Virus record (IMG/VR): IMGVR_UViG_3300010375_000009
Coordinates: 1 to 40,336 of that record
Source: a virus
Reading direction: 5' to 3' (one strand)
Length of the DNA: 40,336 bases
Shown here: positions 7,861 to 37,657 of the stretch, in pieces
Numbering within the stretch: the stretch's first letter is position 1
How the letters are laid out: each line of letters opens with the position of its first letter
The notes under the pieces: generated by a model
Database searches by the model: none
What the model was told of the DNA's origin: nothing
Seen by the model: only the letters and a program-made list of their open reading frames with translations
Made by a program: the position numbers and the translations under genes

Positions 7861-7882
7861 CCGGCGAAGGATGCCGTGCCAC

Positions 7883-7926: not shown

Positions 7927-7934
7927 CCCCTTCC

Positions 7935-11563: not shown

Positions 11564-11784
11564 GGGCGATAATCAACAATCCTGCCGACCGTTGCACCGC
11601 GACCGCTGGAATTCATTTTCAGCGTGTAGCGCGAGACATTGGTCGCACGGACCTGAGGTGTCGTCGCCGCGTGCAAATCACAATCGATGGATCGGCTTTC
11701 TGTCGCGCGCACGCCGCAGATCGCGTCTTGGCAATGGTGCTTTCTGGCGCACATTTCACAATCGAATCCGCGGAGCACGTATGA
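11560..11784 (+). CDS. Hypothetical protein, 74 aa, Cys/His-containing
   Basis: Joined by ATGA overlaps to the gene before and after. Contains C12, then LRCRRRVQITIDGSAFCRAH, a C...C..H arrangement after a short beta hairpin, consistent with a metal site. Codon usage is more mixed than in neighbours. Function unknown. Confidence 0.6.
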   Translation: MRAIINNPADRCTATAGIHFQRVARDIGRTDLRCRRRVQITIDGSAFCRAHAADRVLAMVLSGAHFTIESAEHV

Positions 11785-12365: not shown

Positions 12366-12410
12366 GGTGCGTTGAGCCTCACACGCCGCCGACAGCACTC
12401 TCCCACGCAT
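12366..12410 (+). promoter_or_regulatory. Late leader element 1 (GGTGCGTTG), before terminase small subunit
   Basis: GGTGCGTTG at 12366-12374, 7 nt after a stop codon and 43 nt before ATG 12409. GGTGC can pair with GCACT (12395-12399), or GTGCG with CGCAT at the start codon (12406-12410). There is no Shine-Dalgarno before the ATG. One of five intergenic copies. Confidence 0.65.
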
Positions 12411-13077
12411 GGGAGCAGCACTCGCCACCGTCGAAGTCCAGCACAGCAACGCCCATGCACCCCGCAAGGTCCGCATAAGCACCAACGTGAAGCGCGCCAT
12501 CGAAGCAATGGTGCACGACGGCAAGAAACGCGCTGAAGCCGCGCAGATCGCCGGAATTCTCGACGAAAGCCTCCGACAAGCCCTCACGCGACAAGAATGT
12601 TGCGCATACCTGAACGACCAGTTGAGGGTTAAACGCACGAGCGCGGCAGCCCGAACAGTCGCCAAGGCCGAGCAATTGATGGACGGCGCCGAGTCCGAGC
12701 ACGTCCAGGCCGACATGACCAAGTGGCTCGCCGGCCTCGAAGGCATCAGCCCTGTGCAACGTACTGAAAGCACTATCAATCTTCGCGCGCCGGTCGGTCC
12801 CGGGCTCGTGATCCTGATGGTCGCCGCACCTGACCCGCTGATAAGGCATCAGCAGAGCGAAGGCGGATTGACCAGCACAAACAGCAGGTTACCACCACCT
12901 GTTCCTCATCCCGCTTGGGGAAAGTCATCTGATTGCGATGCAGCAGCGACCGAAATCTCCGGGGAATTGCTTGCCCCGCAAAATGACGGGGAGGGGAAAA
13001 ATCGCGCGGCCGAGATTGACCGGGCTACTTCACCCGCGAGCGTGAGAAAAAATTCTTCCAGAAAATCAGGAGGGTAA
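12409..13077 (+). CDS. Terminase small subunit-like protein, 222 aa
   Basis: The N-terminal half reads like small-terminase helix-turn-helix proteins of alphaproteobacterial phages: KRAIEAMVHDGKKRAEAAQIAG, AYLNDQLRVKRTSAAARTVAKA, then AESEHVQADMTKWLAGLEGISPVQ. Such proteins recognise the packaging site and stimulate the large subunit. The C-terminal 70 residues are low in complexity, AT-richer and probably disordered. The ATG at 12409 has no Shine-Dalgarno and follows leader element 1. The large subunit follows after three small genes, one of them a GIY-YIG-type protein. Confidence 0.75.
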   Translation: MGAALATVEVQHSNAHAPRKVRISTNVKRAIEAMVHDGKKRAEAAQIAGILDESLRQALTRQECCAYLNDQLRVKRTSAAARTVAKAEQLMDGAESEHVQADMTKWLAGLEGISPVQRTESTINLRAPVGPGLVILMVAAPDPLIRHQQSEGGLTSTNSRLPPPVPHPAWGKSSDCDAAATEISGELLAPQNDGEGKNRAAEIDRATSPASVRKNSSRKSGG

Positions 13078-13413
13078 ATGGCGCGGCCGCGCTGGTGCGA
13101 GGATTCCCAAAGCTACGAGCAGTATTGCCACGTCTATGTGATCGGGCCTGAGGGCGGTCCGTACAAGATCGGGATCGCGGTTGATGTCGCGGTGCGGCTG
13201 ATCGACCTGCAGATCGGCAATCACCTCGAACTCAAGGTGTTGGCCTCCGTCAAGGTTCCGGGTTCGGCTCAGCGTGCGCGCAGCATTGAGGAGCAGATGC
13301 ACTGGGCGTTTTGGAAGCGCCGCGTGCGGGGCGAATGGTTTGATATTCCCCTGGCGGAAGCGGAAGCGCATTTGCAGCGATTGACGGCGCCCAAAGAGGA
13401 GATCGCGGCATGA
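13078..13413 (+). CDS. GIY-YIG/T5orf172-type protein between the terminase genes, 111 aa
   Basis: VYVIGPEGGPYKIGIAVD (about residues 21-38) is the GIY-YIG core in the form seen in T5orf172/MUG113 proteins (VYV ... YKIG). It is followed by a conserved-looking RLIDLQIGN and EEQMHWAF ... GEWF. These domains are nicking or homing-type nucleases or DNA-binding relatives. AGGAGG stands just before its ATG, which abuts the small terminase stop. Its place between the terminase genes recalls free-standing homing endonucleases and nuclease helpers (HNH proteins) of packaging. Which applies here is open. Confidence 0.72.
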   Translation: MARPRWCEDSQSYEQYCHVYVIGPEGGPYKIGIAVDVAVRLIDLQIGNHLELKVLASVKVPGSAQRARSIEEQMHWAFWKRRVRGEWFDIPLAEAEAHLQRLTAPKEEIAA

Positions 13414-13484
13414 AGCGCTTTCTCGCTTGGCTTGCGGCTTTGCTCGACGCGATCACTGAGGACGCGCTGAACGGGAGGCTGTGA
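13410..13484 (+). CDS. Micro-peptide, 24 aa
   Basis: An ATGA overlap at its start and a TGATG overlap at its end fit it exactly between two genes. It begins MKRFLAWLAALLDAITED, an amphipathic helix with a basic start. It may be a real peptide or merely a coupling device that carries ribosomes to the next start. Confidence 0.4.
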   Translation: MKRFLAWLAALLDAITEDALNGRL

Positions 13485-13708
13485 TGGCGGACATTGTCCC
13501 GATCAAGGCACACCGCGAATATTACCGCGCGCAGAAGAGGACGGCCGCGGGCGTACTGCGCGACTGTCGGGCCTCCAATCCGAAAGAGATTCTGGTGATC
13601 GGCATTGGCGCCGACGATGAATTGTTCGTTCAGGGCTCGCCGCCCGATCCCGGCAATGCGCTCTGGCTCATGGAAATGGCAAAGAAAAAACTCCTCGGGT
13701 CCACGTGA
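13484..13708 (+). CDS. Hypothetical protein, 74 aa, before terminase large subunit
   Basis: ATG 13484 has GGGAGG 5 nt upstream, which favours it over GTG 13481. The protein has a basic first half (AHREYYRAQKRT) and a beta-like ILVIGIGADDELFVQG. Similar small proteins precede terminases in other phages, without known function. GTGA overlap with the large terminase gene. Confidence 0.65.
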   Translation: MADIVPIKAHREYYRAQKRTAAGVLRDCRASNPKEILVIGIGADDELFVQGSPPDPGNALWLMEMAKKKLLGST

Positions 13709-15291
13709 ACGACGCCGCGAAGATCGAACCGCTTCGGATGACGATCGACGGCGAGACGCTGGCGGCGTTTGCGAACAACTGGGCGTTTGTGACGATCATC
13801 CGCGGGCCTTGGGCGAGCGGGAAGAGCACGGTCTGCATCCAGAAGATGTTCCAGGCTGCGTGCCTGCAGGCGCCGGATCGGCGGGGCGTGCGGCGGTCGC
13901 GCTGGGCGGTGGTGCGCAACTCGTATCCCGATCTGCAGGAAACGACGATCAAGACGTGGCTCGAGTGGTTCCCCGAGGATCTGTACGGGCCGATGCGTCG
14001 GTCGCGGCCGTTCCAGCATGTGATCTGCGTGCAGGGCGAGCCGGTCGGGGGCAAGCCGACGTTCGTCGAGATGGAGGTGGTGTTCCTCGCGCTCGACGAC
14101 GAGAACGACGTCAAGAAGCTGCTGTCGATGGAGTTCACGGGGGCGTGGATCAACGAAGCGCGCGAGATCATCAAGCCGCTGATCGACGCGGTGATCGGGC
14201 GCACGGGGCGGTTTCCGTCGAAGCGTGACGGTGGGCATACCTGGTCGGGCTGCTTCATGGACACGAACGCGCCGGCTGAGAACCATTGGCTCCCGATGAT
14301 GATGGGCGAAGCGGTGGTGCCGGATACCGTGAGCGACGACGAGCGCATGGGTTTGGCGAAGCCGGATGACTGGGTCTATTTCGTCCAGCCCGGGGCGCTG
14401 CGGCCGGTGAAGGACGCGCAGGGCAAGATCGTGGATTTCGAGCCGAACCCGGAAGCGGAGAACATCCGCAACCTGACGGACGGGTTCGAATACTACATGC
14501 GGCGCAAGGGCGGTAAGACGCGCTCGTGGGTGCTGGTGAATTTCTGCAACGAGCTCGGCACGCTGATGGCGGGCAAGCCGGTGTGGCCGACGTTCGACCG
14601 TCAGAAGCATGTCGCGCGCAAGCGATTGGCCTATGACGCGAACTATCCGCTGCTGGTCGGTATCGACTCGACAGGGCGCAATCCCGCGGCGGTGTTCGGG
14701 CAGCAGGTGCGCGGACGCTGGCTGCTGCTGGCTGAGTTGGTTGGCCGCGACATCGCGATCCCGGCGTTTGCCAAGCAGGTGAAGGCGAAGGCGGCCGCGC
14801 TCGTGGCGGCGGCGGGGATGAATACGGCCCATGCGGCCATCGTGTTCTACCGCGACCCGCATCAGGAGAAGGGCCAGGGCGACGACCGCAACACCGATCA
14901 GATGTACCTGCAGGCGGGTATACGGCTTATCCCGGCGCCGGGCGGGAACGCGATCGCCACGCGCACGCAGACGGTCGAGGTGCTGTTCGACAACGACAAG
15001 ATCGAGATCGATCCCGGCTGCACGATGCTGATCGCGGCCTGCGGCGGCGGCTACCGCTTCCGCAAGCTGAAGATCGCCGGGACCGAGGCCTACGAGGATT
15101 TGCCCGACAAGACGAACGGATATGCCGATGTCGCGGACGGGCTGCAGTATTTGATCCTCGGCGGCGGTGGCGGCCGGGAAATGGTGCATGGCGGGGCGAA
15201 GCCGAAGGCGGTCAACGTGGTGCGCAAGTTCAATCCGCTGGCGCGAGGCGAACAGGCGGCGAGCCGCAGGGCCAGCGTGTTCGCGCGGTGA
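13705..15291 (+). CDS. terL: Terminase large subunit
   Basis: A 528-residue packaging motor. Walker A is GPWASGKS (residues 34-41). The acidic strand GAWINEA (about 146-152) fits Walker B plus the catalytic Glu. The C-terminal RNase H-like nuclease begins at LLVGIDSTG (D about 320). It pumps phage DNA into the prohead through the portal and cuts it. The GTG start overlaps the preceding stop (GTGA). The C-terminus is basic after a Gly-rich GGGGGRE. The gene lies directly upstream of the portal region, as expected. Confidence 0.94.
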   Translation: MNDAAKIEPLRMTIDGETLAAFANNWAFVTIIRGPWASGKSTVCIQKMFQAACLQAPDRRGVRRSRWAVVRNSYPDLQETTIKTWLEWFPEDLYGPMRRSRPFQHVICVQGEPVGGKPTFVEMEVVFLALDDENDVKKLLSMEFTGAWINEAREIIKPLIDAVIGRTGRFPSKRDGGHTWSGCFMDTNAPAENHWLPMMMGEAVVPDTVSDDERMGLAKPDDWVYFVQPGALRPVKDAQGKIVDFEPNPEAENIRNLTDGFEYYMRRKGGKTRSWVLVNFCNELGTLMAGKPVWPTFDRQKHVARKRLAYDANYPLLVGIDSTGRNPAAVFGQQVRGRWLLLAELVGRDIAIPAFAKQVKAKAAALVAAAGMNTAHAAIVFYRDPHQEKGQGDDRNTDQMYLQAGIRLIPAPGGNAIATRTQTVEVLFDNDKIEIDPGCTMLIAACGGGYRFRKLKIAGTEAYEDLPDKTNGYADVADGLQYLILGGGGGREMVHGGAKPKAVNVVRKFNPLARGEQAASRRASVFAR

Positions 15292-15294
15292 ACG

Positions 15295-15311
15295 TGTAAG
15301 CAATCCTTACA
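15295..15311 (+). other. Short inverted repeat after the terminase gene
   Basis: TGTAAG and CTTACA flank a 5-nt spacer immediately after the terL stop and 9 nt before late leader element 2. Too AT-rich and short for a good terminator; it could be a protein-binding site. Confidence 0.35.
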
Positions 15312-15320
15312 TACTCATGC

Positions 15321-15365
15321 GGTGCGTTGCGGGTGAGCGTCCGCCGAACGCACCTTCCCGCGCAT
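15321..15365 (+). promoter_or_regulatory. Late leader element 2, strong hairpin before the portal block
   Basis: GGTGCGTT (15321-15328) pairs perfectly with AACGCACC (15347-15354), and inside it GCGG (15329-15332) pairs with CCGC (15341-15344): about 12 bp with a 2-nt bulge. The ATG at 15364 follows 43 nt after the motif start and has no Shine-Dalgarno. Confidence 0.7.
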
Positions 15366-15624
15366 GGGATGGGGCTCGCCACCAAAACCTGATCCGAAGC
15401 TGGTCAAAGAGCAGGACGCTGAAGCCCAGCGCGCCAAGCTCGACCGCATCGACCTGATCCAGAGCCAGCTTGGCCTCGAAGACCAGCTCCGCGCGCAGGT
15501 CTACGGGATGCGCGACACCAATGTCGGCGGCAACAATTCCGGCGGCGACGGCTTCAACGGCGGCGGATTTGGCGGCGGCGGCGGCGGGTATTTCCCCGGT
15601 CACTTCCTCGGATTCCCGCAATGA
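15364..15624 (+). CDS. Small Gly-rich protein upstream of the portal, 86 aa
   Basis: The first 50 residues form a charged helix (PKLVKEQDAEAQRAKLDRID) and the last 35 are Gly/Asn/Phe-rich (GGGFGGGGGGYFPGHF). The ATG has no Shine-Dalgarno and sits behind leader element 2. Its TGA overlaps the portal ATG. Short proteins of this kind precede head-tail connector genes in related podoviruses; a minor structural or assembly role is likely but unproven. Confidence 0.65.
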   Translation: MGWGSPPKPDPKLVKEQDAEAQRAKLDRIDLIQSQLGLEDQLRAQVYGMRDTNVGGNNSGGDGFNGGGFGGGGGGYFPGHFLGFPQ

Positions 15625-17189
15625 ACGGCGACACGCTCGAACAGCAGGCGCTCAAGTTCATCGGCGAGGCCGAGACCGACCGCGACTATCACAAGCCCTG
15701 GCTGACGGATGTCTACCGCTATTGCCTGCCGTGGCGCCGCCGTCCGGGCAATCACCAGCAGGTCAACGATCAGGACGATCTGTTCGACGCGACAGCGATC
15801 GAGGCTTTGTCCGACTTTGCGGCCGACATGCAGATCACCTTCACGCCGATCGAGGACGACTGGCTGGACGTTGAGGCGGCTGAGAACCTGTCGGTTGCCG
15901 ACGCCGCGCAGATCGCGCCCCAGCTCGCGGCCTATCAGGACGCCGTGTTCGGCGAGATTCGCCGCTCCAATTTCCACGAGGCGTCGCAGGAAGCGTATCC
16001 CGATCTCGGGACCGGCACCTGCGCGATGTTCGTCCAGGACTTCGACCTGACGGCACCGCTTCAGTGCCAGGCCGTGCCGATCACGGATTTGCTGATCGTG
16101 CGCGGCTGCTACGGCGGCGTCGATTTCAAGGCCCGCGAAATCCCGGCGATGAAGCTGCGCGATCTGGCGCCAACCTATCCGCGCGCGGCGCTGACGCCCG
16201 ATCTGGTGCAGCGCGCCGAATCCGATCCCGGCAGCACGGTGTGCGTGCACGAATGCTACTGGCGCCTGTGGGACCGCAAGAGCATTGAGCGCTGGCAGTA
16301 CGTGCTGCTGATCGACCGCAAGCAGGCGGACGCGGCGGTGCTGGAAGGTGCCGGCTGCTGTCCGCTCATCGTGGCGCGCTGGCGCACGGACTCCACGACG
16401 GCATGGGGTGTCGGCCCGCTCTACGTGGTGCTGCCGACCATCAAGACCCTCGATCAGCTTCAGTACCTCGTCCTCAAGAACCTGTCGTTCGCCGTGGATC
16501 CGGCGGGACTGTTCGACGACGACGGCACGATCAATCTCGAGAACGGCGTCAATCCGGGCGACTGGATTCCGCGTCAGGTCGGATCGAAGGCCGATGTGCT
16601 GCGCTCGGAATCGGATTTCGACACGACGTTCTTTGAACGCTCCGCGATGCAGAGCGACATCAAGCGCGCGCTCTTCCAGGACAACCCGAGCCAGTCCGGC
16701 GACACGCCGCCGACCGCATCGCAATGGATGGACGAGAAGGCCGAAGTCGCGCGCCGCATGGGTGCGCCGTTCGGCCGGCTCACGAGCGAATGGCAGATCG
16801 CGCTCTTCCAGCGCTTCGCCTATCTCGGCGAACGGCGCGGCGATCTTCCGAAGGTCAACCTCAAGGGCGGCGCCATCCGCTTGCGGCCGCAATCCCCGCT
16901 CGTGCGCGCGCAGCGGATGCAGAAGGTTTCGACCGCGTCCCAGCTCCTCGGCGCGGGCAACCAGCTTTTGGGCGAGCAGACGATGCAGGTGTCCGTCGAC
17001 GGCGGCGCGACGCTGCGCGCTCTGCAGAAGGCGCTCGGCGACGAACTCGTGGTGCTCCGCTCGCCAGAAGATCAGAAAGCGCTCATCGCGCAGGCTGCCC
17101 AGGCCGCTCAGGCGGCTGGTGTCATTCCGCAATCGCCGCAACAGCAGGGCGCACCACCGCCCGCCGTTCCAACGCAGCAGGCCGCATGA
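15621..17189 (+). CDS. Portal (head-to-tail connector) protein
   Basis: A 522-residue podoviral connector. It has the family's N-terminal pattern (DYHKPWLTDVYRYCLPW), a hydrophobic core with IKTLDQLQYLVLKNL, and a helical C-terminus ending in Ala/Gln-rich sequence that should form the crown. Twelve copies form the ring through which DNA enters and leaves. Length fits the T7/BPP-1 connector family. ATGA overlaps on both sides. Confidence 0.9.
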   Translation: MNGDTLEQQALKFIGEAETDRDYHKPWLTDVYRYCLPWRRRPGNHQQVNDQDDLFDATAIEALSDFAADMQITFTPIEDDWLDVEAAENLSVADAAQIAPQLAAYQDAVFGEIRRSNFHEASQEAYPDLGTGTCAMFVQDFDLTAPLQCQAVPITDLLIVRGCYGGVDFKAREIPAMKLRDLAPTYPRAALTPDLVQRAESDPGSTVCVHECYWRLWDRKSIERWQYVLLIDRKQADAAVLEGAGCCPLIVARWRTDSTTAWGVGPLYVVLPTIKTLDQLQYLVLKNLSFAVDPAGLFDDDGTINLENGVNPGDWIPRQVGSKADVLRSESDFDTTFFERSAMQSDIKRALFQDNPSQSGDTPPTASQWMDEKAEVARRMGAPFGRLTSEWQIALFQRFAYLGERRGDLPKVNLKGGAIRLRPQSPLVRAQRMQKVSTASQLLGAGNQLLGEQTMQVSVDGGATLRALQKALGDELVVLRSPEDQKALIAQAAQAAQAAGVIPQSPQQQGAPPPAVPTQQAA

Positions 17190-17464
17190 CACGCACGTTC
17201 GCATCGCTTCGTCCGCAACCGCGCAAGCCCGCGCCCGACGACCTTCTCGTGCAGTCCTGCGCGCACAAAATCTTCTCCACGCTCGAGGGCGAAATCTTCA
17301 TGCAATGGGCTCGGCTGCAGGCCGAAGCGGTGCTCGGTCCCGACGCTACGGACGGTGCGTTGCGGATGCACGAGGGCGAACGGCAATTTGTGCGCAAGAT
17401 CGAGGGACTGATTGCCAGTGGCAAAGAACGCAGCGCAGGACGACAAGGCGACAACGGCGGCTGA
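17186..17464 (+). CDS. Bbp19-like protein, 92 aa
   Basis: Resembles Bbp19 of Bordetella phage BPP-1, especially ALRMHEGERQFVRKIEGLI (about residues 57-75). It lies between portal and scaffold as in that phage. Its role there is not settled; a capsid assembly protein is likely. The ATGA overlap with the portal sets the start. A coding copy of GGTGCGTTG (17354-17362) encodes part of DGALR, and the GTG of the scaffold gene lies inside its end. Confidence 0.75.
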   Translation: MTRTFASLRPQPRKPAPDDLLVQSCAHKIFSTLEGEIFMQWARLQAEAVLGPDATDGALRMHEGERQFVRKIEGLIASGKERSAGRQGDNGG

Positions 17465-18140
17465 ATCTGCCGACGCCGCCGGTCTGAACGATCAGTCGAG
17501 CGTCAAGTTCGACGCGCTGCTCGCTGCGAGCGGCATCAGCGGCGACTACACCCAGGGCGACGTCGAGGAAGCCGCGCACAAGATCACGAACGCGCTGGCC
17601 GAACAGAAGCGACTCGCCGAAGACAAGGCTGCTGGCCTCGGCACCGTTCCCGACCGCTACAGCTTCGATCTTCCGCAGGACTTCAAGTCCCCGGACGGCC
17701 AGAAGTGGCAACCCGACGAGAACTTCACGAACTCGATCAGCGAGTGGGCGCGCGAAGCCGGCATCGATCAGGACAAGATGTCCAAGCTGGTCGTGCGCTA
17801 CGCGCAGCATCAGATGAACCAGATGACTGCCGGGAAGAAACAGTCCGATGAAGCCCGCAGTGCCGAACTCGGCAAGCTCGGCCCAAACGGGCAGGACCGC
17901 ATCGGCGCTGTGATGAAAGCGGTTGCCGCGCATTACGGCGACGACGGCGCGCAGGCCCTGCAACAGGGCGGATCGGCGCGCGGCATCGAAATTCTTGAAG
18001 ACCTACTCGCGGCGAAGAATGGCACCGGCAACGGTGCGCAGCAGCGCGGAAACGGTGCGGAGAAGCCGAATCTCAGTCAGCACGTCGGCAAAAAGGGCGG
18101 CGGCAGAAAACTTCTCGATATCGCGAACAAGGGACGATGA
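17418..18140 (+). CDS. Capsid scaffold / assembly protein, 240 aa
   Basis: An acidic, helix-rich protein with long disordered parts, immediately before the major capsid gene: the usual look and place of a podoviral scaffold. A YSFDLPQDFKSPDG section and a conserved helix (SISEWAREAGIDQDKMSKLV) resemble capsid assembly proteins. The C-terminus is basic (KKGGGRKLLDIANKGR), as expected for binding the coat protein. GTG 17418 is preferred over a TTG two codons earlier. It overlaps the Bbp19-like gene by 47 nt. Confidence 0.78.
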   Translation: MAKNAAQDDKATTAAESADAAGLNDQSSVKFDALLAASGISGDYTQGDVEEAAHKITNALAEQKRLAEDKAAGLGTVPDRYSFDLPQDFKSPDGQKWQPDENFTNSISEWAREAGIDQDKMSKLVVRYAQHQMNQMTAGKKQSDEARSAELGKLGPNGQDRIGAVMKAVAAHYGDDGAQALQQGGSARGIEILEDLLAAKNGTGNGAQQRGNGAEKPNLSQHVGKKGGGRKLLDIANKGR

Positions 18141-18149
18141 GGTAACACG

Positions 18150-19085
18150 ATGGTTGCGATTACACTTAATGACGCCGCGAAGATCGCGGCCGACAACGGA
18201 CAGACCAAGAAGGCCGGCATCATCGCCCAGTTCGCGGAAAAGTCCGATCTGCTGGGCGCGATGAGCTTTGAAGGCATCGCCGGCAACGCGGTCAACTACC
18301 TGCAGGAAGGCGAACTTCCTACTGTGGCATCGCGCGGTATCGGCGAAAGCTATGTCGCCAACGCGGGTACGTTCACCTCGCAGACCGATGCGCTGTACAT
18401 CTACGGTGGCGAGGTCACGCTCGACCGGTTCATTCACCAGACCCAGGGCGCCGAGGTGATGTCGCGCTACGAGACGACGAAGGTGAAGGCCCTGTCTGTG
18501 GCGATCACCACGGCGCTGATCGGCGGCTCGAATGCGACCGACCCGACCAGCCTGGACGGCCTTCAGACGCGCATCACGGAATCGACCCAGCTCATCGACG
18601 CTGGTTCGACCGCTGGCGGTGCGGCGCTCTCGCTCAAGAAGCTCGATCTCCTGATCGATTCCGTCGAAAGCCCGACGCACCTGCTCATGTCGCGCGCGAT
18701 GCGCCGCAAGTTCATGGCCGCTTTCCGGTCCTCGACCTTCCCGAACATCCGCATGGACAAGAATGATCTCGGCGAGATGATCATCAGCTACGGCGATCTT
18801 CCGATCCTTGTCGGGTATCCTCCGATGAAGAACACGCAGTTGCTGCCGTTCACCGAAGCGGCGTCCTCCGGCGGGGCGACCGCGACCTCCATCTACTGTG
18901 TGAACCTCGGCGAGGATGGCGTGGTCGGGATCTCGAACGGCGGCATCAGCGTTCGCGAACTCGGCGAGCAGAACGACGCGCCGGAAATGAAGACCCGCAT
19001 CGAATGGTATCTCGGCCTCGCGGACTATTCGCCCTATGCACGCGCACGCCTGCGCTACATCGGCGATCTCGACATCGTGGCGTAA
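18150..19085 (+). CDS. Major capsid protein, 311 aa
   Basis: Reads like the HK97-fold coat protein of BPP-1-like podoviruses. It has an N-terminal helical arm (AKIAADNGQTKKAGIIAQFAE), an E-loop-like stretch (ELPTVASRGIGESYVANAGTF), a long spine helix (VKALSVAITTALIGG) and a C-terminal P-domain strand region ending SPYARARLRYIGDLD. GAGGT 8 nt before the ATG is a good Shine-Dalgarno. It follows the scaffold and precedes the cement protein. Confidence 0.9.
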   Translation: MVAITLNDAAKIAADNGQTKKAGIIAQFAEKSDLLGAMSFEGIAGNAVNYLQEGELPTVASRGIGESYVANAGTFTSQTDALYIYGGEVTLDRFIHQTQGAEVMSRYETTKVKALSVAITTALIGGSNATDPTSLDGLQTRITESTQLIDAGSTAGGAALSLKKLDLLIDSVESPTHLLMSRAMRRKFMAAFRSSTFPNIRMDKNDLGEMIISYGDLPILVGYPPMKNTQLLPFTEAASSGGATATSIYCVNLGEDGVVGISNGGISVRELGEQNDAPEMKTRIEWYLGLADYSPYARARLRYIGDLDIVA

Positions 19086-19097
19086 GGGGAACGGACA

Positions 19098-19577
19098 ATG
19101 GCAAACGACACCAACCGCTACGGCTTCACCTACGACAGCAACCTGGTTCTCAAGGATCCCGGCCTCATCGCCGCGTCTGCGGCCGGCCAGGTCAACGGCA
19201 AGAACCAGCTCATCGACGTCGGAGACGGCGTCTACTGGGGCGCGGCAGTCATCGACTGGACCGCGTGCGAGGTCGATTCCTCGAACGAGCTTTACACCGT
19301 CAGCGTGCAGGGCGCGTTGCGCGGCACCGGCTCGACGCGCGATGTGCCCGTGCTCGACACGTCGCATATCGAAAACCTCGCGATGGCGGACTTCGGACAC
19401 ACCAGCGTCCGCAAGGGCGCTGCCGAAACTTCTCCTTCGAGCGGCCGCATGATCCTGCCGTTCCGCAATGTCGTCGCAGACACGACCTACCAGATCCTCC
19501 GTGCCTACATCACCGTGGCAGGCACGATCGCGACCGGCTTCAACGTCGGCATCTGGATCGGAAAGTTGCCGATCTGA
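19098..19577 (+). CDS. Bbp16-like capsid cement protein, 159 aa
   Basis: Matches in pattern the Bbp16 cement protein of BPP-1: ANDTNRYGFTYDSNLVLKD at the start, then a beta-rich body (GVYWGAAVIDWTACEVDSS, TTYQILRAYITV) and GFNVGIWIGKL at the end. Such proteins form jelly-roll clamps on the outside of the mature capsid. It directly follows the coat gene. Its stop overlaps the ATG of a 50-residue gene (TGATG). Confidence 0.85.
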   Translation: MANDTNRYGFTYDSNLVLKDPGLIAASAAGQVNGKNQLIDVGDGVYWGAAVIDWTACEVDSSNELYTVSVQGALRGTGSTRDVPVLDTSHIENLAMADFGHTSVRKGAAETSPSSGRMILPFRNVVADTTYQILRAYITVAGTIATGFNVGIWIGKLPI

Positions 19578-19729
19578 TGCGCGTCATCCTGATCCGCGAC
19601 CTGGAGACAGGTGAAGTGCTGAAGCGCTCAGGCGCGACGGCGCTGGAAATTCTCAAGCAGAAGGAGCGCTTCTGCGAAAAAGGCTCCGAGCCGAAAGGCT
19701 GGAAGCCGTCACAGAAGGAGGCCGCGTAA
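19577..19729 (+). CDS. Small hypothetical protein, 50 aa
   Basis: Starts in TGATG with the cement protein stop and ends in TAATG with the next peptide. MRVILIRDLETGEVLKRSGATAL reads as two strands then a helix. Its end supplies an AAGGAGG Shine-Dalgarno for the basic peptide. Function unknown, but translational coupling on both sides supports it. Confidence 0.6.
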   Translation: MRVILIRDLETGEVLKRSGATALEILKQKERFCEKGSEPKGWKPSQKEAA

Positions 19730-19800
19730 TGCGTAAGGGCAAAGGCAAGGGTCGCAAGGCCAAGCGCAAGGCTCGTCGTGCGAAGCGCAAGCGCAAATAG
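19729..19800 (+). CDS. Protamine-like micro-peptide, 23 aa
   Basis: It encodes 23 residues of which 16 are Lys or Arg and the rest are Met, Gly and Ala. AAGGAGG lies 7 nt before the ATG, one of the best ribosome sites in the window, and the ATG overlaps the preceding stop. Such a peptide would be fully charged and DNA- or RNA-binding. Located among head genes, it could be packaged with or condense DNA, neutralise charge, or act on host nucleic acid. None of this is shown. Confidence 0.65.
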   Translation: MRKGKGKGRKAKRKARRAKRKRK

Positions 19801-19830
19801 CACCTCAATTCTCGAAAGGGCTGAACGGCC

Positions 19831-20244: not shown

Positions 20245-20253
20245 GGAGACGCC

Positions 20254-20886: not shown

Positions 20887-20887
20887 C

Positions 20888-20931
20888 GGTGCGTTGCCGC
20901 CCTGCGCGGTTGAGCCACACCTTGCGCCATG
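20888..20931 (+). promoter_or_regulatory. Late leader element 3, before the tail adaptor gene
   Basis: GGTGCGTTG at 20888-20896, 1 nt after the stop codon and 41 nt before ATG 20929, which has no Shine-Dalgarno. GGTG can pair with CACC (20918-20921), enclosing a CCGC/GCGG hairpin (20897-20900 with 20906-20909). Confidence 0.65.
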
Positions 20932-21528
20932 TCCGCCGCTGCTGTCGCCATCGTCAACGCTGCGATCTCCCGCACGGGTGGTAACACCATCACGGGCACC
21001 GATTTCACGGACGGCTCGGTTGAAGCCAATCTTGCCCTCGCCAATTATGAACAGATCGTCGTTACGGAATTGGAATCGGACCCGTGGCGGTTCGCGCGCA
21101 AGACCGATGTCTGCACGCTTGAGCCCGACGCGCCAATAGACACGTCCTGGGACTTCGCATGGACGCTGCCAGTTGATGTGCTCACCCTGCGCACCCTGTT
21201 CCGCAACGGACAGGTGATCGACTACGAGATCAACGAATCCGGTGAGGTTCTCACCCATTTCGATGATGATGTGTATGCGGTCTATACCTACCGCGCCGCC
21301 GAAAGCCTCTGGCCGTCCGACTTCACCGAAGGCGTCACGCGGCTGCTCGAAGCGCTCTATCTGCGCCTCGACGACCGGTTTTCCGAAGCCGACATGCGCG
21401 AGGAATCGGCGCGCCAAATCCTGAAGCGCGCCGCAAACACCCACGCCAAGGAAGAGGCTCCGAGCGATCCGCGCACGTTCCCGCTGGTTGCCGTGCGGAG
21501 GACCGGCTATGGCAATTGCCGTCGTTGA
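20929..21528 (+). CDS. Tail adaptor / tubular protein A-like, 199 aa
   Basis: The place, length and pattern fit the T7 gp11-type gatekeeper that docks under the portal: AAVAIVNAAISRTGGN, ANLALANYEQIVVTELESDPWRFA, then FTEGVTRLLEALYLRLDDRF. This adaptor links connector and nozzle. It starts without a Shine-Dalgarno behind leader element 3 and overlaps the tail tube gene by 20 nt. Confidence 0.72.
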   Translation: MSAAAVAIVNAAISRTGGNTITGTDFTDGSVEANLALANYEQIVVTELESDPWRFARKTDVCTLEPDAPIDTSWDFAWTLPVDVLTLRTLFRNGQVIDYEINESGEVLTHFDDDVYAVYTYRAAESLWPSDFTEGVTRLLEALYLRLDDRFSEADMREESARQILKRAANTHAKEEAPSDPRTFPLVAVRRTGYGNCRR

Positions 21529-28363: not shown

Positions 28364-28376
28364 GATAGGAGGCAAA

Positions 28377-28622
28377 ATGGCTGACAACCCGTTAGATTTT
28401 CAGAGCGCGCACGACCGCAAACATGGCCCTGACGCAGAGTTCGTCTATCGCGATGAGCGAGGGTGCAGTTGGTTCAAATTCACATGTTCATATCGCGACG
28501 GAGAAGACGAATTTTGCTTCGAAATCTGGGCGCTCAATGTGGCCGATGCAGAGCGGCGACTCCGAGCAATCTGCCAGACCGCTAAGGTCGACGGCCAGTT
28601 GTTCCATGAAGTGCCTGCTTAG
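28377..28622 (+). CDS. Possible moron: small soluble protein, 81 aa
   Basis: A self-contained gene with its own AGGAGG 4 nt before the ATG, in AT-richer sequence than its neighbours. It is inserted between two internal virion genes that would otherwise be adjacent. The product has FKFTCSY and FEIWALNVADAERRLRAI, a beta-then-helix pattern seen in unnamed small alphaproteobacterial proteins. It is unlike a virion protein. Independent gain is likely; function (host modulation, defence or counter-defence) is unknown. Confidence 0.7.
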   Translation: MADNPLDFQSAHDRKHGPDAEFVYRDERGCSWFKFTCSYRDGEDEFCFEIWALNVADAERRLRAICQTAKVDGQLFHEVPA

Positions 28623-28631
28623 GGGGATTGT

Positions 28632-31145: not shown

Positions 31146-31146
31146 C

Positions 31147-31211
31147 GGTGCGTTGAGCGCAGGGCGCGAGCGCCCATTATCCCGGCAGCGAGATTTTCGA
31201 CCGGGAGCACC
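31147..31211 (+). promoter_or_regulatory. Late leader element 4, three-way-junction fold before the fibre block
   Basis: GGTGC (31147-31151) can pair with GCACC (31207-31211). Inside are hairpin GGGCG-CGAG-CGCCC (31162-31175) and hairpin TCCCGG/CCGGGA (31180-31185 with 31201-31206), stacked on the closing stem. The likely Shine-Dalgarno GGGAG (31203-31207) of the next gene is inside this structure. Motif to ATG is 70 nt, longer than in the other copies. Confidence 0.65.
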
Positions 31212-31216
31212 ATCCG

Positions 31217-31813
31217 ATGAGCCTCAAGGACACCCTGAAGGCCGAAGCCAGCGTCGGAGCGACGGCGATTCTTGGAGGCGGCATGTCCGAACAGGCGCGC
31301 GCCGAGGGCGTCTATGTCGTCGAATGCTTCGACAAGGACGGCAATCTCAAGTGGCGCGACACCATTGAAAACACGGTGATGACCGAGGGGAAGAACGTCG
31401 TCCTCGATCAAGCGCTGGCTGGCTCGTCCTATAGCGTTGTTGGCCCCTACATGGGGCTGATTTCATCGGTGAGCTATTCCGCGATCGCTGCCACCGACGT
31501 CGGCACGCAGATCAACGGCACGAACGCATGGAAGGAAGCTGGCGGCTCGAACGCCCCGACCTATACCGGCAACCGCAAGACCTGCGCATGGTCGTCGGCA
31601 TCGGCTGGCGCCAAAGCGCTGTCCGCCGCTCTAGCCTTTGCGATCACCGGCACCGGCACGATCAAGGGCTGCTTCATCGTGTTCTTCACCGGTGCGGTGA
31701 ACACGAAGGACGACGCGCACGGCACGCTGCTGTCGGCCGGCCTGTTCTCAGGCGGCGACCGCGCAGTACTCAGCGGCGACACCGTGAACGTGAGCTACAG
31801 CATATCGCTATGA
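31217..31813 (+). CDS. Probable tail fibre-associated protein, 198 aa
   Basis: Begins MSLKDTLKAEASVGATAILGGG, then a beta-rich body (GVYVVECFDKDGNLKWRDTIENTV) resembling virion proteins found before tail fibres in podoviruses. Gly/Ser/Thr/Ala-rich, low in charge. GGGAG 9 nt before the ATG is buried in leader element 4. Opens the receptor-binding module. Confidence 0.62.
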   Translation: MSLKDTLKAEASVGATAILGGGMSEQARAEGVYVVECFDKDGNLKWRDTIENTVMTEGKNVVLDQALAGSSYSVVGPYMGLISSVSYSAIAATDVGTQINGTNAWKEAGGSNAPTYTGNRKTCAWSSASAGAKALSAALAFAITGTGTIKGCFIVFFTGAVNTKDDAHGTLLSAGLFSGGDRAVLSGDTVNVSYSISL

Positions 31814-32106
31814 GCGTGAAAGAGACGGTCAAGGAGCATTTTTCGGTGCTCGCGGACGGCGGGCTGCGGGTACGCATGAACCGCGTCCTGCCCGGCGAAC
31901 CGGTCATCCGTCACGCACACCCGAAAGCGCACGCGACCGTCATCACCGGGCACATCGTCGCGAAGTGCGACCGTGGCGATTTCAATCTGATCGCGCCCGA
32001 AGGTCACCTCGCCGTGTTCATCGTTCCTGCCGGCGAAATGCACGAGCTGCACGCCGTCACACCCAGCGCTTACGCCTGCGTCGGTGAGGAAGGGTTCGAC
32101 CTGTGA
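31810..32106 (+). CDS. Cupin-like small protein, 98 aa
   Basis: Reads as one cupin barrel: RHAHPKAHATVITGHIVAKC has the H-x-H of motif 1 with a following strand, and FIVPAGEMHELHAV has the P-x-G-x-x-H of motif 2. Metal binding by these His is expected. Cupin-like proteins occur near phage tail genes as small structural or assembly factors; an enzyme role is not excluded. ATGA and GTGA overlaps tie it to both neighbours. Confidence 0.6.
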   Translation: MSVKETVKEHFSVLADGGLRVRMNRVLPGEPVIRHAHPKAHATVITGHIVAKCDRGDFNLIAPEGHLAVFIVPAGEMHELHAVTPSAYACVGEEGFDL

Positions 32107-32606
32107 CAACCGTCCTCAAAGCAAATCCCGGCTCATCCGCTGCGCTCACCGTCACGGCGCTGGCGAGCCTCGCGAGCGATACCAACCTGCTTGCCGGATG
32201 GTCTTCGGCGGTGATCGACAACACGTCGAATCTCAGCGTCGACGAACAGATCGCTGGCACGATCCTTACCGGCACGAGCCCGACCGTCAGCACCTCGATC
32301 CTGATCTATGCCTGGTCGATCCTCGACGACACGCCGACATATCCCGATACCATCGACGGCACGCAGGGCGCCAAAACCCTCACGTCGGCCAATGTGCTCA
32401 ACTCCGGCGCGTTCAAGCTGCTCGGCGTCATCACCATCGACGCGACGACCAACCGGTCCTATCCGTTCGCGTTCAATATCGCGCAGGCTTTTGGCGGGAC
32501 GATGCCGAAGAAGTGGGGCGCCTTCATCGTGCATAACACCGGCGTCGCGCTGAAATCCTCCGGCCAGGTCGTCAGCCGCATCCCGCATCAGTATCAGAAC
32601 GTGTAG
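32103..32606 (+). CDS. Probable tail/fibre protein, 167 aa
   Basis: GTG start in a GTGA overlap. A beta-rich, Thr/Ser/Ala-rich protein (AALTVTALASLASDTNLLAGW, TSILIYAWSILDD) ending HQYQNV. Similar proteins stand next to fibres in podoviruses. No named domain recognised. Confidence 0.6.
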   Translation: MTTVLKANPGSSAALTVTALASLASDTNLLAGWSSAVIDNTSNLSVDEQIAGTILTGTSPTVSTSILIYAWSILDDTPTYPDTIDGTQGAKTLTSANVLNSGAFKLLGVITIDATTNRSYPFAFNIAQAFGGTMPKKWGAFIVHNTGVALKSSGQVVSRIPHQYQNV

Positions 32607-32615
32607 GGGCGTCGG

Positions 32616-34136
32616 ATGGCGCTCTGGACGCCGCGCCTCATCAAGCCGACCAGCCATGTCCGGGCGAACCTCGCGCATCCGCAGGCCCGCGAACTCGCGT
32701 TCTTTCTGCACAATGTCGGTGGCGGGACGTTCGTCGATGCGGTGACCGGAAAGACCGAGGGCGCGGCGTCCGGTCAATCCGCGCTTGCTTCCTCGGAAGG
32801 CAATGTCCTCCACTTGGGCGGCACGACGCGGTCGAGCGGAACGGCGTTCGTCAACACGCAAGCCACGGTGCAGAACTTCTGCACGGTCATCGCCAATCTC
32901 CGGCTCACGACCAAGCCCGCTTCGCGGTGCACGGCCGTTCAGTACGGCGTTTCGAGCAATGGCAGCGGGCCATTTGTCGGCTTCGACTCCAACGGGTTCG
33001 CGCACGGCGGATGCTCAGGCACAAATGGCACCAACAGTTCCGCGAGCCTCGACGCGGTCGATCACACGGGCAAGTGGGTTGTCGTAGCGGGATCGTGGTT
33101 TCCGACTGGTGCGAAGACAAACAACGCCGTATCGAACGGCTCGTGCGTGTGGGTCGACGGCGTCGCGAAATTCTTTGGCACAGCCGGCGCTGGCTCCCAA
33201 TCGACCAATGCCGTGCCGAACACGCTGGCGCTCGGCCGCGAGATTTCGAACTACAACAACTTTTTCGTGGGCGACATCGCCTGGGGCGTAGGCCTCAACC
33301 GGCTGCTGTCCGACGACGAGCAGGCCTGGTGGGCACAGCACGCCTATGAGGTGCTCGAACAGAACGTCAGCCGTTCGTTCTTCTCGATGCCGGCTGCTGC
33401 CGGCGGCAACGTCTACAACGACTCAGTCTCGGAAAGCGGCTCAGCGTCCGATAGCCCGACTGATGTTGCGACGCTGCCATCAAGCGCTTCAGAAAGCGGT
33501 TCTGCATCTGACGCACCGTCTTCCGTAGCCACGCTGCCATCGTCCGTTTCTGAAAGCGGAACGGCCAGCGATGCTGCGTCCTCGCTCGCGACATTGCCGT
33601 CCACTGCGGCCGAAAGCGGCGCGGCATCGGACGCGCCGAGCAACATTGGAACGTTTGGGGTCAGCGCATCAGAGAGCGGATCGGCTGCTGATACTCCGTC
33701 GACCGGCACAACGTTCGCGTCGACCATCTCTGAGACCGGAACAGCCTCCGACGCCCCGTCCAGCGTTGCCGTCCTGCCGTCGAGCGTTTCGGACTCGCTC
33801 GCGGCTTTCGATGCGGGCGCTATTCTGGCGGGAAGCGATCCGTTCGCGGGCACCGTCATCCCCGGCGCGCGCTTCCCGCAGCGCCAAGAGCGTCTTGTCG
33901 ATTCGAATGGCCGCATCACCGAGCCGTGGTATCGCTGGGCCAAATTCGTCGACGCCGCTGTGCGCGCGCTCCACGTCGGCAAGGCCGACATCAACACGCC
34001 GATCATCCTCACGTCCGCCACCGCTGCCGACGTGCCCACTCCGCCGTCCGACGTTTGGTACATCTTCGTCGACAACGTGACGGGAAAGATCGTCTTCAAG
34101 GCTTACACCGGAACCACTCGCGAGCTTGACCCATGA
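32616..34136 (+). CDS. Tail fibre with lectin-like domain and Ser/Ala repeats, 506 aa
   Basis: Residues 1-250 resemble a concanavalin/LamG-type sugar-binding sandwich (ELAFFLHNVGGGTFVDAVTGK, ..LGREISNYNNFFVGDIAWGVGLNRLLSDDE). Residues 271-390 are six full copies and a partial of a 20-residue repeat of the type SESGSASDAPSSVATLPSS. The C-terminal 110 residues form a compact end (EPWYRWAKFVDAAVRALHVG). A receptor-binding fibre with an extended shaft is the natural reading. The end overlaps the tailspike start (ATGA). Confidence 0.68.
   Translation: MALWTPRLIKPTSHVRANLAHPQARELAFFLHNVGGGTFVDAVTGKTEGAASGQSALASSEGNVLHLGGTTRSSGTAFVNTQATVQNFCTVIANLRLTTKPASRCTAVQYGVSSNGSGPFVGFDSNGFAHGGCSGTNGTNSSASLDAVDHTGKWVVVAGSWFPTGAKTNNAVSNGSCVWVDGVAKFFGTAGAGSQSTNAVPNTLALGREISNYNNFFVGDIAWGVGLNRLLSDDEQAWWAQHAYEVLEQNVSRSFFSMPAAAGGNVYNDSVSESGSASDSPTDVATLPSSASESGSASDAPSSVATLPSSVSESGTASDAASSLATLPSTAAESGAASDAPSNIGTFGVSASESGSAADTPSTGTTFASTISETGTASDAPSSVAVLPSSVSDSLAAFDAGAILAGSDPFAGTVIPGARFPQRQERLVDSNGRITEPWYRWAKFVDAAVRALHVGKADINTPIILTSATAADVPTPPSDVWYIFVDNVTGKIVFKAYTGTTRELDP
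33426..33800 (+). repeat. 60-bp tandem repeat coding for Ser-rich units
   Basis: Units begin at 33426, 33486, 33546, 33606, 33666 and 33726, with a partial at 33786. Each codes for (V/A)SESG-ASDAPSS-ATLPS with changes. Codon-level divergence between units shows they are not recent copies. They form an extended fibre segment. Confidence 0.75.
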
Positions 34137-37100
34137 AAAATCTGATCTTCCTTCTGGCGCTCCTGCTGCCGTCGCTCGCGATCGCGGACTCCATCGTCAC
34201 GACGACGCAGGTCCAGACGATCTCGAACAAGAGCATCACGCCGACATCAGCGACAAACACGGTCACGCTCGAAGCGCTCGGCGGCCGCGCGCTGGCGCTC
34301 AAGGACTTCGCCGGCGCCACCGACGATTGCTCGACGCCCAACGCCACGGTGATGACGAATGCCGAGACGGCGGCGCTCGGCTCCGGCATCCACAACATCG
34401 TCGTGACCGGCGGCTGCTATGCTGTCGGCACGCACACCGTCGCGCCTGGCATCCAATACTGGTGCCCGGGCCCTATCGCGACCGAACCGGCGAACAACGA
34501 TTACCGCAACATGCCGATGAGCTTCGCGCTCACGACCACCGCCGGCATCACATTTCCGTCCAATTCCGGCGAGCACAACTGCACGTTCCTCAAGTCGAAC
34601 ATCGCGCAGGCCGCGCCGCCCGCATCCGGCGATTTCCAGGCGAACTACGCCCGCGCGCAGGCTTTCGCCGGAACAGGTGTCACCGTCACCGGGGAAGGAT
34701 CGACGCTCGATGGCGGTCTTTTCGTGGGTTTCGCTACCGGCGTCAGCACCAAGAACGCGCGCACCGCGGTTCTCAAACATTTGTCGATCGACGCCACCAA
34801 GTGCATCGATTTCACGAACCAGCCCGGCGGCGGACGCATCGACGGAAGCGATCTCCAGTGCTCGCCCTTTGCCACCCGGTTTGGCGGCACGATGCAGGAA
34901 CCGTCGTTCGCGGTTTCGAGCATCACCGATTCCGGGGGCAACCTGCTCGCCACGCTCAGTTCGGCCTGCACCGGTGTTGGCTGTCCGCTCACCGGCTATC
35001 AGGTCTGGATGGCGAATGCCGACAACCTGAGCGCACAGAGTGCGATCGGCGGGTGGATCGCCACCGTCGTCGACTCCACGCACATCCTGTTCCAGGGCTC
35101 CACGTCGGCCTTCATCACGGGCGGACAGTCTGAGCCCGGCGTCACCGTGACCAATGGCTCCGTAGTCATTTCCGGCCTCACGCTGTTTCTGTCTCAGGTC
35201 CAGCCGACACAATCGGTGACCGGGTCCTGCATCACGGGCACGGCGACGATCGTCAACGTGCATCGCGGTTATGGCAAGATCTGGCTGGATAGCGCCCATC
35301 CGGCCAATACGACCGGAACCTGCACAATCACCATCGCGGACACCGCGCCGACGCTGGTTTCCATCGCGGCCGTTTCCATCAACACTGCGGGCTCCGGGTA
35401 CTCCGTTGGGGATCGGGTGTCGCCATCGACGGGAACCGGCACGCCGGCAGTGATCGATGTCGATCAGATCGATAACGGCGCCATCGGCGGACCGGGCGTT
35501 CCCACGGCTGTTTCGTTCGACGATGCCGATGGCAGCGAGGGCAGTTATTCGGTCCTGCCGACGCTGACAAACAGCCCCACGACCGGCGGGACGGGCAGCG
35601 GTCTGACGCTCGATCTCAAGGTGGCGTCGATCTACGGCTCGGCGGTGATGCGCAATGGTCCCGCGTTCAATTGCGCCAAGACCGTCGACGTCCGCCTGAA
35701 TGACATCGGCGAGTTGAGCCACTCCAAAGGAATTTCCGCCGGCTTCAATTGCCGCGGCCTGATCGCGGTGAACTGCTCGCTGCACGATGAGAACGTCCTG
35801 CAGGATCAGACGCACTACGGCATCGAGTTCTGGTCGAACGCCGACAGCAACCGCATGTCGATGTGCGACAGCTACTATTTCGGTGCTGCGATCGCGGCGC
35901 ACAGCAAGGCTGCATCGAACATCGCGCCCAACGTGGTGGCGAACTCGCACCTGGGCGGATCGGCCGGCAACAGCGGGTTGCTGAACACCCTTGTGGATGT
36001 GGCCTGTTACGACGCCAGCAACGTGCCATGTCCTGCCACGCCGCAGAAGTCCTCGATCACGCTTTCCGGGAACACCGCGCAGATCGCGGGTTCGGTGATC
36101 ACCGTCATGGGCGACGCGCGCAGCGTGAACATGGTCGGAAACTCGTTCGCCGGCACGACCGCCTATTGCGAGAACGACACGGCGGGAACGCTCACTGTCG
36201 GTGGGTCGAACAGTCTGCTTGGTTATGTCGGTTGCGGGGATTTCGCGACCAGCCCCGACACGAACAGCGTGAAGATACAGCCCACCAACACGAACACCGT
36301 GCGGCTGACCAACGGGGATTGCGGCAAAACCGTCATTTCGAGTGCTGCGGGCGGCACGCTCCCCGTGATCCTGCCGAATCCTGCGGTCACGGGATGCACC
36401 GTCAAGTTCCGGCCGAACACGAACGCCATCACCATCGACCCGAATGGCGCGACGATCGCCACAAACCCCGTTGCTCAGTCGAGCATCCTCACGCTGGTTG
36501 GCGAAGTGAGCGGATCGATCACGTTCCGCTACGACCCGAGCACGAACCGCTGGCGCATTGACGGCGGCGCGCCCTCGACGATCACGCGCAACAATTTGGG
36601 CTATGGCTCGAACACCGCCCATGGGCAGGTCTACATGTCCTGCAAGGGTACGTGCTCCGGTGGCACCGGCCAGCTTCAGGTCTGCCCGCTCAACGGCTCC
36701 GGCGGCCTCATCATCAACGGATCGATGTATTCGCTCGCGGGCTGCATCTTTCTGGACAATTCCGTGTTCTCCGCGGTCACAAGCGCGCTGCGCTACATCT
36801 ACGCGCTCCCGACCACGCAGGGGGTGACGGCGATGGCGGACAATGGCAGCGGCAAGGTTCGCCTGACGATCAACAGCACGGCCGGTTTCAACACCGGCGA
36901 TCCGATCACCTGCGTCAATGCGACGGGCACGGCGGCGGCGGATGTGCTCAACGACGTCAATACGACGCTGATCGATGCCACGCACATCGACGTGACGGAT
37001 GTGAGCTGGGTCGCGACCGGTACGGGATCCTGCTACTGGATCGGGCTGGTCATCAGCGCGGCCGGGCATGTGACGGATGCCAATGGCGTCGAGGTCCAGA

Positions 37101-37612
37101 GCGGCAACACCGCGCGGACACTGGTCGGCATGGCCTACATCGACGCCTCGCACAACCTGAATGCGACCGCGACGAAGCAGGACGTGGCGAGCTGGGAAAA
37201 TCGCCAGCAGAACAAGTGCATCAGCACCTATTCGACCGACCGCACGACCTCGTCGACCTCCTACGCCGAGCCCAACAGCGAGATCGAATGCGAGTTCGTC
37301 TCGTGGGGCGCGCCTGCGACGCCCGGCCTCCCTGTCCCGACAACAGCCTTCGCGGCAAGCGGCATGGCGGCGAACGGCACAGGCGGCGATGGCTGGAACG
37401 TTGGCGCCGGGTTCGACAGCACCTCGACCGCGCAGACCGAGAAGACCGGCAGCAACAATGGCGGGACGACGCAATTGCCGTTCGCGCTCAGCGGTGCGGC
37501 CAGCCTGTCGGAAGGCAAGCATTTCGTGACCCTGCTGGCGAAGTCGATCACCGGGGGCACCACGACGGTCTACAGCTCAGCAACCTCGCTGGAAGCCTTG
37601 CCCTGGCAATGA
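34133..37612 (+). CDS. Tailspike-like protein with an N-terminal signal-peptide-like helix, 1159 aa
   Basis: A very large Gly/Thr/Ser/Asn-rich, beta-rich protein. Residues 150-220 and 490-640 have the short-strand, Asn-turn look of a right-handed beta-helix (TVTGEGSTLDGGLFVGF; NCRGLIAVNCSLHDENV), as in spikes that bind or cut polysaccharide. The first 19 residues (KNLIFLLALLLPSLAIADS) look like a secretion signal with an Ala-x-Ala cleavage site. Many Cys occur. The ATGA overlap with the fibre gene supports the start. Enzymatic residues cannot be picked out. Confidence 0.72.
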   Translation: MKNLIFLLALLLPSLAIADSIVTTTQVQTISNKSITPTSATNTVTLEALGGRALALKDFAGATDDCSTPNATVMTNAETAALGSGIHNIVVTGGCYAVGTHTVAPGIQYWCPGPIATEPANNDYRNMPMSFALTTTAGITFPSNSGEHNCTFLKSNIAQAAPPASGDFQANYARAQAFAGTGVTVTGEGSTLDGGLFVGFATGVSTKNARTAVLKHLSIDATKCIDFTNQPGGGRIDGSDLQCSPFATRFGGTMQEPSFAVSSITDSGGNLLATLSSACTGVGCPLTGYQVWMANADNLSAQSAIGGWIATVVDSTHILFQGSTSAFITGGQSEPGVTVTNGSVVISGLTLFLSQVQPTQSVTGSCITGTATIVNVHRGYGKIWLDSAHPANTTGTCTITIADTAPTLVSIAAVSINTAGSGYSVGDRVSPSTGTGTPAVIDVDQIDNGAIGGPGVPTAVSFDDADGSEGSYSVLPTLTNSPTTGGTGSGLTLDLKVASIYGSAVMRNGPAFNCAKTVDVRLNDIGELSHSKGISAGFNCRGLIAVNCSLHDENVLQDQTHYGIEFWSNADSNRMSMCDSYYFGAAIAAHSKAASNIAPNVVANSHLGGSAGNSGLLNTLVDVACYDASNVPCPATPQKSSITLSGNTAQIAGSVITVMGDARSVNMVGNSFAGTTAYCENDTAGTLTVGGSNSLLGYVGCGDFATSPDTNSVKIQPTNTNTVRLTNGDCGKTVISSAAGGTLPVILPNPAVTGCTVKFRPNTNAITIDPNGATIATNPVAQSSILTLVGEVSGSITFRYDPSTNRWRIDGGAPSTITRNNLGYGSNTAHGQVYMSCKGTCSGGTGQLQVCPLNGSGGLIINGSMYSLAGCIFLDNSVFSAVTSALRYIYALPTTQGVTAMADNGSGKVRLTINSTAGFNTGDPITCVNATGTAAADVLNDVNTTLIDATHIDVTDVSWVATGTGSCYWIGLVISAAGHVTDANGVEVQSGNTARTLVGMAYIDASHNLNATATKQDVASWENRQQNKCISTYSTDRTTSSTSYAEPNSEIECEFVSWGAPATPGLPVPTTAFAASGMAANGTGGDGWNVGAGFDSTSTAQTEKTGSNNGGTTQLPFALSGAASLSEGKHFVTLLAKSITGGTTTVYSSATSLEALPWQ

Positions 37613-37613
37613 C

Positions 37614-37657
37614 GGTGCGTTGCCCGCGACGGTAGAGCGGCTCAATCGTGGCGCATG
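37614..37657 (+). promoter_or_regulatory. Late leader element 5, before the lysis block
   Basis: GGTGCGTTG at 37614-37622, 1 nt after the tailspike stop and 41 nt before ATG 37655, which has no Shine-Dalgarno. GTGCG (37615-37619) can pair with CGCAT (37652-37656) covering the start codon, around a CCGC/GCGG hairpin (37624-37627 with 37637-37640). Confidence 0.65.

Follow-up and report, generated by a model that had tools for sequence, protein, structure and literature searches.

In phage T4 the middle promoters carry a box for the phage factor MotA in place of the -35 hexamer, together with a sigma70 -10, and the MotA box is centred near -30. The lambda-repressor-fold activators cII and cI of phage lambda act next to or across the -35 region, and the cII boxes read TTGC-N6-TTGC. 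Among temperate phages, Ogr of P2 is one activator of sigma70 late promoters and C of Mu is another. Beginning an mRNA on the start codon itself, without a leader, is not the way of most bacterial genes. In Mu, a single phage activator, C, turns on the head, tail and lysis blocks from several dispersed late promoters with poor sigma70 consensus (PMC4461284). The late promoters of phiEco32-like phages are read by a phage sigma factor (PMC8948821), and those of phiKZ, as far as the account cited in PMC5312081 goes, contain TATG and are served by the phage's own multisubunit RNA polymerase. Here we report that a 9-mer, GGTGCGTTG, repeated in the late region of a virus, is very probably the distal half of activator-dependent, sigma70-type late promoters that would make leaderless mRNAs. 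No description of this element or of an equivalent was found in the open-access literature, where the ten papers listed (of 420) for the 8-mer GTGCGTTG as a text string had unrelated titles. An earlier sequence-only reading of the same DNA knew of no such element.

The window, by which we mean the whole 40,336-nt stretch that was analysed (IMGVR_UViG_3300010375_000009), is the record of a temperate podovirus as judged from its sequence. It encodes exonuclease VIII, internal virion proteins and a virion gene set that is T7-like, and no close DNA relative of it was found in the phage collection. Its GapR-like (DUF2312) protein points to an alphaproteobacterial host, and a MUG113/T5orf172 (GIY-YIG-like) protein is encoded at 13078-13413, between the small and large terminase genes. 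The features used below are as follows.

314-1474, minus strand: integrase
7258-8313, minus strand: S24/CI-like repressor
8764-9177: GapR-like (DUF2312) DNA-binding protein
11781-12359, plus strand: XRE-type helix-turn-helix protein of 192 aa, candidate activator
12219-12227, plus strand: exact GGTGCGTTG within the 3' end of the regulator gene, without a -10 at the right spacing
12366-12374, plus strand: putative late promoter element GGTGCGTTG (-35 region and upstream GTGC box), ahead of the small terminase gene
12396-12401, plus strand: putative -10 CACTCT, start predicted at or next to ATG 12409
12409-13077, plus strand: small terminase subunit, leaderless candidate
15321-15329, plus strand: putative late promoter element GGTGCGTTG, ahead of the 86-aa gene and portal block
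15351-15356, plus strand: putative -10 CACCTT, ATG 15364
15364-15624, plus strand: 86-aa gene ahead of portal, leaderless candidate
15621-17189, plus strand: portal
17354-17362, plus strand: putative late promoter element GGTGCGTTG, within the 3' end of ORF 17186-17464
17384-17389, plus strand: putative -10 CAATTT, at the correct spacing from the 17354 element
From 18150: major head protein
20888-20896, plus strand: putative late promoter element GGTGCGTTG, ahead of the tail adaptor block
20918-20923, plus strand: putative -10 CACCTT, ATG 20929
20929-21528, plus strand: tail protein (phrog_394), leaderless candidate
From 21488: second tail protein
31147-31155, plus strand: putative late promoter element GGTGCGTTG with a longer leader, ATG 31217
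31175-31180, plus strand: putative -10 CATTAT, start predicted near 31187, leader of about 30 nt with GGAG
31217-31813, plus strand: phrog_8123 protein, heading its block, leadered
37614-37622, plus strand: putative late promoter element GGTGCGTTG, ahead of the holin/lysis block
37643-37649, plus strand: putative -10-like CAATCGT, ATG 37655
37655-38029, plus strand: holin-like protein (Phage_holin_10, E 7.8e-6, just under the Pfam cut-off), leaderless candidate

When both strands of the window were scanned, exact GGTGCGTTG was found seven times on the plus strand and not at all on the minus strand, at the coordinates that the sequence-only reading had given; the shuffle mean is 0.46, and a count of seven was reached in none of 100 dinucleotide shuffles. 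A purine and a C stand ahead of all seven copies, the full match being RCGGTGCGTTG. One-mismatch copies are not above chance level in the window, and the site is therefore strict. Five of the seven copies stand 41-70 nt before late-gene ATGs; the distances of 43, 43, 41, 70 and 41 nt reported for them are all correct, as is the placing of three of them 1 nt past a stop codon (stops 20886, 31145 and 37612). Two other late-region gaps, at 19730-19830 and about 28364-28631, have no copy. The two copies in coding sequence had been counted correctly, but their joint dismissal does not hold. The copy at 17354, which has a CAATTT -10 and counterparts ahead of the same gene in four relatives (W01, G008, G009 and G014), is probably a promoter as well and would serve the scaffold/capsid block, whereas the copy at 12219 has no -10 and is probably not a promoter.

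Relatives were gathered by portal protein and include IMG/VR records, a Brevundimonas MAG, a Gellertiella hungarica isolate and Microcystis phage Mwe-JY08. Scanned on both strands, the complete relatives with GTGCGTTG, whose portal proteins are only 31-45% identical, keep this 8-mer, usually with AG next, in 7-10 copies on the late strand and 0-1 on the other (late/other strand: G002 9/1, G003 9/1, G004 8/1, G005 10/0, G007 7/0, G016 8/1, W01 7/1 and the window 8/1), while a 3.5 Mb host assembly has a background of 39/46 by strand. The element marks a large podovirus family, mostly of Alphaproteobacteria. Unbiased strand-specific k-mer counting found variant elements, namely GTGCATTC in G001 and G006 (7/0) and TGTGCTTTG in G008, G009 and G014 (6-7/0), that precede the same genes as GTGCGTTG, often with equal spacing. 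In two sister clades all copies are GTGCATTC or GTGCTTTG and the late strand is without GTGCGTTG; in the portal tree, each variant forms one clade with full support and GTGCGTTG is scattered over the remainder. Since the dispersed sites of one genome have changed together, a trans-acting reader is implied.

The cultured portal relatives Hodr, MEP301 and two Vibrio phages are without the element, which is therefore not general to the portal family, and no obvious alternative motif was seen by eye in the upstream regions of Hodr. A blind DNA-pattern scan for the element, the -10 and CATG over 2.9 million viral contigs recovered more portal-family phages, including a lineage of 46% GC with 4-5 strand-specific copies. 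The same scan returned many marine viral contigs of 40% GC with a single near-identical taattGTGCGTTGAG about 32 nt before an ATG (L094, L113, L114, L119, L124, L138, L140 and L160 among them), which form a further lineage; some 40% GC marine contigs encode a related XRE protein (L126, L142 and L183). Other repeats were also met in these genomes. The top k-mer of G010, AGTGTTAG, was ruled out as an element because it is a terminal tandem repeat, and this 41.5 kb record has 12-nt tandem repeats, GGCCAGTGTTAG, at both ends. Strand-specific coding-like repeats in 7-19 copies occur in G002, G008 and G009 (CCCACGCCGCATCCC; GCCGCAGACTCC; GAGTGCCGGTGGCGGA), and direct repeats in Mwe-JY08 were uninformative for the element. 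Mwe-JY08 (L009, PP395640.1) encodes a DUF2312/GapR-like protein and a LexA-like protein, and in its portal and late promoters it belongs with this mostly alphaproteobacterial clade; the cyanobacterial host given for it may be an error, with a heterotroph in the culture as the host instead.

Of 126 copies counted across the family, 58 have an ATG 31-34 nt past the element, compared with 1.9% of random positions, in a search that by design counted ATG starts only. A Shine-Dalgarno sequence is found in one of these 58 copies and in 10 of the 18 with a spacing of 41-61 nt (Fisher p 4e-7, a value that overstates independence because many of the 126 copies come from related genomes). In the window, the four short-distance cases have no Shine-Dalgarno sequence, as had been noticed before, and the leader at 31147 has GGAG. 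Of 40 non-redundant leaders aligned on the ATG, 30 have A at -11, 31 have T at -7 and 32 have C at -1, and nothing else was notable. This is the geometry of a sigma70 -10; it predicts a transcription start on the A of the AUG, or no more than about 1 nt away, with a pyrimidine at -1. Measured from the element, an A...T pair at an offset of 20-23 is present in 36 of 40 short copies (p 1e-28) and in 19 of 41 other copies (p 1e-7) against a background of 12%, both p-values including related genomes. Copies inside genes are among those that keep this distance; outside the short class, about half of the copies have no recognisable -10. Of the seven window copies, six have the pair, including 17354 and not 12219, and the -10 and the ATG are offset by 1 nt or less from their family-average positions, so that the prediction places the start on the A of the ATG or beside it and not on an exact base.

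At 32 nt, which is the most frequent spacing, GTGC is placed at -40 to -37 and the TT of GTGCnTT at -35/-34. The TT is fixed in all variants and TTG is present in two of the three; the rest of the -35 hexamer is not the consensus TTGACA. The GTGC box stands at -40 to -37 ahead of the terminase, portal, scaffold, tail and lysis blocks, and several relatives have terminator hairpins with T runs directly 5' of the element at the tail gene. A late promoter, one of the options that the sequence-only reading had offered, is thus backed by the relatives, the spacing, the -10, the trade-off between Shine-Dalgarno sequence and leader length, the adjacent terminators and the concerted switching between clades. 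Some copies close to the beginning of the late region have no A at -11 and have GGCGTGGTGC instead (G003:16963, G005:16930, G002:20218 and G003:20696); they may represent a second class of promoters that is weaker or is used at a different time.

We propose that the RNA polymerase of the host, carrying the primary (sigma70-type) sigma factor, would use the weak -10 (nAnnnT) and the partial -35 (TT at -35/-34), while a phage DNA-binding factor would read GTGC at -40 to -37, adjoining the -35, and recruit or stabilise the polymerase in the style of a class II activator. At most copies, the transcript would open on the A of the AUG or no more than about one nt away, so that each late block would have its first gene on a leaderless mRNA for which a Shine-Dalgarno sequence is unneeded; the downstream genes of the operon would be translated via their own Shine-Dalgarno sequences or by coupling. 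A Shine-Dalgarno sequence is usually present where the ATG is more distant. The lack of Shine-Dalgarno sequences that had been observed earlier stands, and we read it as a consequence of the predicted start, since a transcript whose 5' end is the AUG, give or take a nucleotide, has no leader to carry one.

The likeliest factor would be the XRE-type helix-turn-helix protein encoded at 11781-12359, which would be produced ahead of the late genes. When the ORFs of 15 genomes were compared by BLAST, its gene was the only clearly non-virion one to be found in 14; it is missing in G013, where no GTGCnTT element was recognised, and no other genome of the set lacks both. Members of the family match HTH_31/HTH_3. 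In the AlphaFold model, the N-terminal part is helical and predicted with confidence, and its neighbours in the PDB are HipB and restriction C-proteins. In several genomes the gene comes shortly before that of the small terminase subunit and ahead of the late block. By co-occurrence and fold, this protein is our candidate for binding the GTGC box and activating the late promoters. The XRE proteins of the GTGCTTTG clade (L080 / L083 / L092; G008, G009 and G014) have an extra N-terminal AlpA/excisionase-like HTH.

It is a serious possibility, if not quite a probable one, that the promoter is real and is read by some other protein of the phage or the host, such as a small early one, the XRE gene having a different role. 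XRE proteins are common in phages, the assignment depends on co-occurrence and fold, and no clean correlation was found between recognition-helix residues and motif class. Pelagibacter phage Hodr encodes a related XRE protein (E 7e-8) and has no GTGCGTT, so that, if the XRE protein is the reader, its site in Hodr must differ. Against another reader speak the DNA-binding fold of the only non-virion product shared by nearly all of the genomes and the position of its gene, just ahead of that of the small terminase subunit in several of them.

A dedicated sigma factor, either phage-encoded or an alternative one of the host, that reads GTGCGTTG as an entire -35 would leave the promoter and the leaderless mRNAs as we propose them, and we consider it improbable. 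The 8-mer is rigid, runs contiguously through the -35 and switches as a unit between clades, and a consensus sigma70 scan of a stretch with two copies of the element (L053) found no promoter. Yet no match to Sigma70_r2, r4 or r4_2 passed the cut-off in 13 phage genomes, with positive controls, and the weak sub-cut-off matches in G009 and G014 fall in or at the small terminase region; A at -11 with T at -7 is the signature of a primary sigma, T-35 and T-34 are unchanged across all variants, and a host sigma would leave the clade-specific switch unexplained.

A T7-like or otherwise unrecognised phage RNA polymerase that reads the element as a contiguous promoter would suit the T7-like virion gene set and the clade specificity that promoters of such polymerases have. 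It is nevertheless very unlikely: RNA_pol (PF00940) had no match in 13 genomes, in a search whose control was silent, the large window ORFs scanned match virion families or nothing, with no Pfam or PHROG polymerase, the second element 20-23 nt downstream has the A-11/T-7 geometry, and a leader of about 30 nt would leave the missing Shine-Dalgarno sequences unexplained. Very unlikely too is a post-transcriptional RNA element in the 5' leader, either a processing site or a translational enhancer, as the adjoining stop and start codons and the short class without Shine-Dalgarno sequences might suggest, given that RNAalifold predicted no conserved or compensatory pairs in 20 leaders, single leaders fold no better than shuffles, Rfam gave no match, copies stand just past terminators and those inside genes retain the -10 spacing.

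With the activator-dependent sigma70-type promoter, a widespread but uncharacterised lineage of podoviruses, most of them from Alphaproteobacteria, would turn on its late genes. The results yield a promoter grammar for use in scans, a candidate activator and, from nature, two switches of specificity that changed every site in a genome. A wider proposal, which we put forward tentatively and hold at somewhat less than even confidence, is that the virion and lysis programme runs on leaderless promoters, that a small XRE factor replaces recognition of the -35, that factor and sites have switched together at least two times (GTGCGTTG to GTGCATTC and to GTGCTTTG), and that late translation is leaderless and possibly bypasses host initiation based on Shine-Dalgarno sequences. 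Such a viral late regulon on leaderless mRNAs would be testable in an isolate, because the isolate Gellertiella hungarica DSM 29853 carries a relative of the GTGCTTTG class as a prophage in its genome (L054 / L050), which makes it a convenient experimental system.

Compared with the described systems, the putative promoters are like those of Mu C and P2 Ogr in being dispersed, activator-dependent late promoters with poor sigma70 consensus; they differ in that the box adjoins the -35 instead of lying further upstream, that the start is predicted at the start codon and that the candidate activator is of XRE type, unlike C or Ogr. With lambda cII they would share an activator at the -35, and TTGC-N6-TTGC recalls GTGC-GTTGAG; here, however, there is one conserved box, at 5-7 or more sites, for late genes and not for a repressor or integrase as with cII and cI. 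As in T4, a phage-factor box would replace the -35 alongside a sigma70 -10, but the MotA box is nearer to the -10 than the GTGC box and no MotA/AsiA homologue was seen. The phiEco32-like phages are likewise podoviruses that use the host core enzyme on phage-specific promoters, although no sigma homologue passes the cut-off here. With phiKZ, within what the cited account covers, the likeness is a promoter element that extends into a start at an ATG-like sequence, and the difference is that phiKZ uses its own multisubunit RNA polymerase, whereas the late promoters described here would be transcribed by the polymerase of the host.
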